The notes beneath the pieces are model-generated. The model had not been told where the DNA came from, ran no database searches, and saw nothing but the letters and a program-made list of their open reading frames with translations. The translations under genes and the position numbers were made by a program. Shown piece by piece: positions 60,133 to 61,799 of a stretch of DNA of 64,000 nucleotides (position 1 is its first letter; every line of letters starts with the position of its first letter). This DNA comes from Acidobacteriota bacterium (lineage in GTDB: Bacteria > Acidobacteriota > Thermoanaerobaculia > Multivoradales > Multivoraceae). The DNA lies in contig JAJCXN010000015.1 of NCBI GenBank assembly GCA_029263415.1, forward strand, positions 62,001-126,000. The letters are read 5' to 3'.

Positions 60133-60858
60133 TCAGCTCTTGCGCCGCTGCGTCCAGGCATCGACGAAGCTCTTGGACATCTTCATGTGCGCCTTGATCT
60201 CAGCGAGCGACTCCTCGTGGGTCACGCGTCGCGACAGCGCCACGGCGCCGTAGTAGTTGCCGTTCATTAGCGGCGTGTAGGCCGCTTCTGGGAAAGCTCC
60301 CTTGAGTGCCTCGCTGCTTTCTGCAGGTACTGACTCGTCGATCGGCAGCGTGCTGGGAACCTCAATCGGAGCGAGGGCCATACCCTCTAACCGTTCGAGC
60401 ACGTCTTCGTCGTTAACGCGGTCGGCAAAATCTCTACTGAGACAACGGAACAGCTCTTGGCCTTGCCCAGAGATGGCGAGAAGAGCTGGCACAGCAATAC
60501 CGCCTCGCTCTTCGGCATTCCAAAGATCCAATGGTTGCAACACCTGTGTACCCTCGGGATCGCTGAGCACAGGGAAAGGGAGCTTCCAACGCTTGCGGAA
60601 CGCTTGGTTGCGCTCCTGCGAATCGACTACAAGGGCCACAACCTCTGCACCTGCGGCCGCCACGCGAGCTTCCTGATTTGCCAGCCGGACCAGCTGGCCG
60701 CAACAGTATGGTCACCAATCGCCGCGAAAGGTGACCAAAAGAACCGCGACGTCGGTGGCTGCCGACCGACGTCCGTCGAGGACGTTTTGGAGGGGGCTCA
60801 TTTGAAGCACGATAGCAAATGGGAGTTGGAAGCGAGAAGGCAACGCCAACCACCTCAT
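60133..60858 (-). CDS. Peroxiredoxin-like protein with in-frame UGA (probable selenocysteine)
   Basis: Read through one UGA (60714-60712), the frame encodes 241 residues from ATG 60858, which follows GGAGG at 6 nt; ATG 60801 is an alternative giving 222. The redox site reads LLVTFRGDW-[UGA]-PYCCGQL, where peroxiredoxin-like thioredoxin-fold proteins have GDWCPYC. Residues after the UGA continue the fold (AGAEVVALVVDSQERNQAF, then LPFPVLSDPEG and VPALLAISGQGQELFRC). A hairpin at 60680-60698 fits a bacterial SECIS element. Normal calling would report only 176 residues from a GTG at 60663 and lose the active site. Sec biosynthesis genes are not in the window. Thiol-dependent peroxide reduction is the likely activity. 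Confidence 0.78.
60680..60698 (-). promoter_or_regulatory. Candidate SECIS hairpin downstream of the UGA
   Basis: In the transcript, 13 nt after the UGA, GCCAGC (60698-60693) pairs with GCUGGC (60685-60680) around the loop UGGUCCG, which holds GGUC like the E. coli fdhF loop. The 6-bp stem, 7-nt loop with an early G, and 19-nt UGA-to-loop distance fit bacterial SECIS limits. The bulged U used by the fdhF element is not evident. Confidence 0.68.
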
Positions 60859-61016
60859 GGGCCTCCTCCAAAGGTCACCGGTGCCCTCAAGTGAATACAC
60901 TAGAGCCGAACCGAGAGATCTTCACCGCCAAGGGTGCCGATTGGCTAGACATGCCGGAGCCGGCAAACCCTTTTTCTCCACCAGCTATCTCTCCTCCTCC
61001 AAGGGAGCATCGCGAA

Positions 61017-61799
61017 ATGGTAGTAGGCCCTGATGTACCAGACTTCAGTCACCGTGACTGCGCCAACTGCGGCAATCCGCTGGTGGGTGACTATTGCCAC
61101 AACTGCGGTCAGAAGACCATTCAACACCGATTCACCACTCCGGTGTTGTTGCGAGGCTTGGCAGGTTACCTGACCGACATCGAACAGGGCTTCGCCCACA
61201 CCGTCGTCAGCCTCTTCCGCAGGCCGGGCGACGTGATCGTCGAGTACTGGGGTGGTCGAACGGTCGCCTACTACGCGCCCTTTCGTTACTTCTTTATCTG
61301 GACCGCCGTGCTGCTGCTCACTAACTTCTGGCTAGGCATTGACGATGTGTTGCAGAGAGTCCTCGAACCCGACGAGTTGGCGGCGCGAACCGGAGCGCAG
61401 GTACTCGCAGCCGCAGACCAACAGTTCGATCAATGGCTAAAGTTGTTGGTCCTAGTGCAGGTACCCATCCATAGCGCTAGCAGCTTTCTGCTCTTTCGTA
61501 AGCACCGGAGGACCTACGGCGAGCACCTGATCCTAAATAGCTTCGTCATGGGTCAACTAGCTCTGATTGCGATCGTGGCTCAGCTCTTAGTGTTGGTGAG
61601 TTGCAACTTCGTCGTGCCATTTCTTCTGTTCAGCTTGATCCTTGGGGTGACCTTCTATACAGCCACTCTGCGCCGGGTCTTCAATGAACCGATTAGGACC
61701 GTCGTTGTGAAGGCGACCATTCAATCCGTGGTGGGCATCGCGGTCTACGGAGCGCTGGTGGCAGCTGCCTCCGCAGTGGCAATCGCTTTAAACAGCTAA
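61017..61799 (+). CDS. DUF3667-like membrane protein with zinc ribbon
   Basis: The start at 61017 has an AAGGGAG site upstream; M at 60951 would add a proline-rich stretch. The 260-residue protein opens with a treble-clef-like zinc ribbon, CANCGNPLVGDYCHNCGQK, followed by a helix and the DUF3667 phrase LTDIEQGFAHTVVSLFRRPG. About four to five membrane helices follow (FRYFFIWTAVLLLTNFWLG, LALIAIVAQLLVLVSCNFV and others). The function of DUF3667 is unknown. It diverges from the Sec-peroxiredoxin gene, with 158 bp between the starts. Confidence 0.85.
   Translation: MVVGPDVPDFSHRDCANCGNPLVGDYCHNCGQKTIQHRFTTPVLLRGLAGYLTDIEQGFAHTVVSLFRRPGDVIVEYWGGRTVAYYAPFRYFFIWTAVLLLTNFWLGIDDVLQRVLEPDELAARTGAQVLAAADQQFDQWLKLLVLVQVPIHSASSFLLFRKHRRTYGEHLILNSFVMGQLALIAIVAQLLVLVSCNFVVPFLLFSLILGVTFYTATLRRVFNEPIRTVVVKATIQSVVGIAVYGALVAAASAVAIALNS

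Follow-up and report, generated by a model that had tools for sequence, protein, structure and literature searches.

SelL proper carries a UxxU motif, ResA is an extracytoplasmic protein with a CxxC motif, and selenocysteine (Sec) usually occupies the attacking position. Peroxiredoxin-like (Prx-like) selenoproteins with a UxxC motif were reported in the Sargasso Sea survey (PMC1088965) and in the GOS survey (PMC2398784), the latter also describing their fusion to unknown domains, and a Prx-like thiol:disulfide oxidoreductase (PF00578, UxxC/UxxU) was given as a high-confidence predicted family (PMC13188914). The selenocysteine peroxiredoxin (Sec-Prx) has a TxxU motif (PMC1088965). The gene analyzed here lies in the window, the whole 64-kb stretch of DNA that was studied, and its predicted product has the AhpC-TSA domain, the Sec in first position of UxxC and the SECIS-like hairpin just downstream in common with the Prx-like UxxC family. 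It differs from that family in an extra invariant Cys (UxxCC), in starting only some 29 residues ahead of Sec and in a C-terminal extension of its own, ~60 residues long. Sec-Prx (PF00578) shares the fold family, but its Sec is at the other motif position, TxxU versus UxxC here. The CxxC of ResA (PDB 3c71, 1st9) aligned with U49-x-x-C52 of the window protein, whereas inspection by eye revealed no evident signal peptide from either candidate start, unlike the extracytoplasmic ResA. The best NCBIfam match was the SelL-related redox protein NF040769, which also matched 20 of 20 aligned members, but the window protein scored 25.6 bits where 120 are required, so that it falls outside this curated family, and it stayed below the cut-off of every curated NCBIfam family. 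For the UxxCC subfamily, the literature search returned only the general Prx-like family. The original prediction of a new member was upheld as regards a divergent member, while the kind is already catalogued (PMC1088965, PMC2398784, PMC13188914) and the novelty is modest.

The coordinates of the features are collected in the table. Translation of the minus-strand frame 60858-60133 showed codon 49 to be the sole internal TGA, preceded by VAVLLVTFRGDW and followed by PYCCGQLVRLANQEARVAAA, which gives the motif GDW(U)PYCC; the longer reading across the codon was VAVLLVTFRGDW-U-PYCCGQLVRLANQ, and the frame ended with the TGA at 60135-60133. In this the frame was open apart from one UGA, as originally predicted, and the claim that Prx-like sequence lies on both sides also proved correct: with C put for U, the Pfam match to AhpC-TSA (PF00578) covered residues 35-132 across the TGA (6.3e-15, 55.6 bits versus a cut-off of 26), and Redoxin was matched at 3.1e-10. 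Mechanical ORF calling yielded the C-terminal 176 residues only (60663-60133), the truncation that had been expected of standard calling. Taken at face value, this split would mean that the UGA terminates a short N-terminal peptide and that a second product, of 176 aa, starts at GTG 60663. However, the downstream ORF is devoid of both the strand and the motif of the active site, AhpC-TSA is matched across the TGA, and homologues align as single proteins over the site, which makes two products extremely improbable.

Features of the Prx-like selenoprotein gene in the window
Feature	Position	Strand	Basis
Probable CDS, Prx-like selenoprotein from Met20, 222 residues (UGA as Sec)	60136..60801	-	orthologue conservation
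In-frame TGA, codon 49, as putative selenocysteine (GDW-U-PYCC)	60712..60714	-	TGA at that codon in G002, G026 and 27 further Prx-like loci
Peroxiredoxin/thioredoxin-like domain, residues ~35-161	60376..60756	-	Pfam, AlphaFold, Foldseek
SECIS-like hairpin GCCAGCUG-GUC-CGGCUGGC, 8 stem pairs in predicted fold	60680..60698	-	fold, covariation, SECIS model
C-terminal extension, residues ~179-241	60136..60324	-	conserved in three orthologues only
Shine-Dalgarno-like GGAGGAGG before alternative ATG 60858	60862..60869	-	sequence read directly

Two candidate starts were compared, the ATG at 60858 and Met20 (60801-60799), the former adding 19 residues. The protein conservation with L024 and L025 began at Met20, residues 1-19 (60858-60802) displayed no coding conservation relative to the orthologues, and in the orthologue comparison pN was near saturation upstream of Met20 (0.57-0.71) versus 0.17-0.37 from Met20 to U. 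Because residues 1-19 are not conserved in the orthologues, the start is probably Met20, so that the open reading from 60858 was confirmed but not the start at that position. No Shine-Dalgarno sequence was present ahead of Met20 in the window gene, and a strong one precedes ATG 60858; a 19-residue N-terminal extension is therefore possible in this species. On the opposite strand, a DUF3667 gene (60819-61799, plus strand) was called from ATG 60819 and overlapped the selenoprotein frame in its 5' part; its true start is probably located downstream of this ATG.

Among 99 related genomes, two loci were clear orthologues (G002, 62% identity; G026, 56%), each in another genus and each with TGA at the same codon and the UPYC motif. 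W-UGA-P-x-C was found in 27 further, more distant Prx-like loci among those fetched, and the identity of the window protein with the remaining UGA loci was about 23-34%. Cys or Sec occupied the U49 site of the homologues, as had been anticipated, with the Cys forms reading WCPxC. One base is enough to turn a Cys codon into TGA, and with Cys at this site in the non-Sec homologues the TGA could be a nonsense mutation in a pseudogene or a miscalled TGT/TGC. This explanation is hardly credible, given that the same-codon TGA was shared by three genera and by roughly thirty loci, that the orthologues showed purifying selection on either side of it, and that covariation maintains the hairpin described below. 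As the same-codon TGA occurred in independent assemblies, in two other genera and in many paralogous loci, an error of local sequencing can be dismissed.

The host genome contained two more Prx-like UGA genes. One of the 27 further loci, L053 (G000:C26:241636-241824, minus strand; GGWUPYCNTQL), had a signal-peptide-like N-terminus and was the strongest match of the SECIS covariance model (49.8 bits), being itself in the training set of that model; the other, L108 (G000:C48:92877-92916, minus strand; SAVWUPPCRSLL), was located by means of this model and scored 31.2 bits. An extra Cys after CxxC was seen elsewhere only in a distant Cys homologue from Azospirillum (L022:3001-3474, GDWCPYCC), the sole such find of the genome-contig scan, and no form with Cys at the site turned up for the three-member subfamily. 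No relatives were found on plasmids, phages or viral contigs, so there was no sign of a mobile origin, and since inspection by eye revealed no shared synteny around the gene in G000, G002 and G026, the genomic context gave no function. At three other loci (L034, L121 and L126), the Prx-like UxxC/CxxC domain preceded another domain, at least 150 residues long, that looked conserved; L034 encodes the Sec form of this two-domain protein, and L121 and L126 the Cys forms.

The Sec machinery was complete in the host genome of the window (6.9 Mb, 99.2% complete), where all four of selA, selB, selC and selD, the genes named for checking in the original prediction, were present. The scores were 457.7 bits for selA, 329 bits for selB, which included the SelB winged-helix domains, and 71 bits for tRNA-Sec with the anticodon tca. 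The selD was an Ndh-SelD fusion (L103:1735-4221) with an N-terminal pyridine-nucleotide-disulfide oxidoreductase domain, an arrangement described earlier (PMC2398784). The Rfam scan of the window gave no match and the tRNA search of the window found none, which places selC on another contig. The selA gene was detected in 92 of 99 relatives, a presence so widespread that co-occurrence with it carried no information.

Downstream of the UGA a SECIS-like hairpin was detected, both conserved and covarying, where the original prediction had suggested looking for one. The hairpin started at about base 17 from the UGA, the core stem of the family comprised 6 pairs (bases 18-23 with 29-34, counting from the U of UGA), and the apical loop, GUC, was small and contained a G. 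Folding of 50 bases from the UGA at 30 loci placed the hairpin in one fixed register in most of them. The complete 6-bp stem was present in 22 of 28 distinct UGA sequences compared with 0 of 26 Cys-homologue windows, many of these controls being TlpA/ResA-type and more distant than the UGA set, and slid registers reached at most 3.3 of 6 pairs. In the alignment of 23 sequences, 99.3% of cells were paired and two-sided changes occurred in 4 of 6 pairs, a covariation matched by none of 500 shuffles. The orthologue comparison matters here, because the hairpin-family sequences also share protein motifs. The hairpin was contained within 20 bases, GGCCAGCTGGTCCGGCTGGC, identical across the three genera, the next-longest identical run in the gene being 8, and synonymous differences elsewhere in the gene amounted to about 0.5-0.9 per site, near saturation. 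Invariant codons were kept as the same codon in the three genera in 6 of 7 cases within the hairpin versus 20 of 89 elsewhere (P = 0.0014).

With the window gene and its orthologues left out, a covariance model derived solely from 19 distant loci ranked the hairpin site first in the window (17.0 bits, E = 0.003) and third over the whole genome, where with an E of just 0.33 the hairpin alone would not identify the site. The single-sequence fold energy was unexceptional (z = -1.26) owing to the GC-rich region, and fold energy alone was rejected as evidence of a SECIS. L026, L027, L028, L033 and L049 (UPFCNSEL) apparently had a different hairpin closer to the UGA, which in L027 was AACUCC-GAGUUAC-GGAGUU, so that subfamilies may not all share one SECIS register. 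Based on the machinery, the same-codon TGA in the orthologues and the covarying hairpin amid saturated synonymous sites, the UGA almost certainly stands for Sec, and we put the probability that the gene encodes a Prx-like UxxC selenoprotein at about 95%. SelB with Sec-tRNA(Sec) would recognize the mRNA hairpin, and the UGA would then be decoded as selenocysteine instead of stop.

The AlphaFold model displayed a confident thioredoxin-like core (pLDDT mostly 80-95 over residues 40-160, with block means of 81-95 over most of residues 41-170), in which U49-C52 was located at the start of helix 50-61. The Foldseek neighbours were Bcp4, AhpC2 and Prx6-type peroxiredoxins, the matches against BFVD were uninformative, and the best PDB match by sequence was ResA. 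The original prediction had put the UGA at the redox cysteine of a peroxiredoxin-like gene product, within a UxxC motif. The motif was confirmed, but U49 is not equivalent to the peroxidatic Cys, since it aligned with the first Cys of the ResA/thioredoxin CxxC and the peroxidatic position corresponded to C52. When the window protein was aligned to peroxiredoxin 5xbs, U49 fell on the active-site Thr and C52 on the peroxidatic Cys (TPVC to UPYC), and R147 was conserved nearly throughout the family. Both observations would suit a true peroxiredoxin with C52 as peroxidatic residue and U49 as its resolving partner, but the canonical peroxide-binding motif PxxxT/SxxC was replaced by RGDWUPYC, with Arg for Pro and Sec for Thr in the same alignment, the closest single-sequence structure was that of ResA, and Sec would not sit at its normal, attacking position. 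We regard a true peroxiredoxin as unlikely.

Judged from its sequence, the product is a UxxC protein of the thioredoxin type whose fold resembles that of peroxiredoxins. In this peroxiredoxin/ResA-type thioredoxin fold, U49 and C52 would form the redox pair at the helix N-terminus, with U49 as attacking nucleophile, C52 as resolving thiol and C53 as an additional neighbouring thiol. As PxxxTxxC is absent, thiol-disulfide exchange or a U49-led, thioredoxin-type peroxide reduction is most likely, and the protein would most likely be a cytosolic enzyme, either a thiol:disulfide oxidoreductase or a peroxide reductase that depends on thiols. Which of these two activities applies can be said with far less confidence than that the gene encodes a selenoprotein. 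In this scheme, the conserved in-frame UGA, the machinery, the covarying hairpin and the fold family are observed, while the actual insertion of Sec, the attacking residue, the substrate and the cellular role are inferred.

The subfamily was marked by UxxCC, the short N-terminus and the C-terminal extension, which had 22 invariant columns among the three genera and was modelled at low confidence (pLDDT 40-58). At a threshold of E <= 1e-5, no other match to the extension turned up among 396 genomes from the phylum, and its structural matches included nothing convincing. Full-length relatives were limited to the two orthologues among 149 genomes of the class, and no further ones were found in 396 genomes drawn from the phylum. 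Since Prx-like fusions to unknown domains are already described (PMC2398784), the extension represents a known type of event, and by sequence comparison the three orthologues are a rare and modestly new subfamily, a small branch of a known selenoprotein kind. They might even constitute a new selenoprotein subfamily whose UxxCC centre and private C-terminal extension would provide a new reaction or partner; this is a tentative idea that we hold to be rather unlikely, and if it holds, the protein could be, for example, a Sec-containing reductase or peroxidase that carries a binding or reducing module within itself.

In its biology the gene belongs to a type already known. It is a clear example of how standard annotation reduces a gene of this type to a C-terminal piece without the active site, and the Prx-like selenoproteins gain with it a divergent branch that has orthologues and whose recoding hairpin is conserved. 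Because the Sec pathway occurs almost throughout this bacterial group, one should expect its genomes to hide further selenoproteins.
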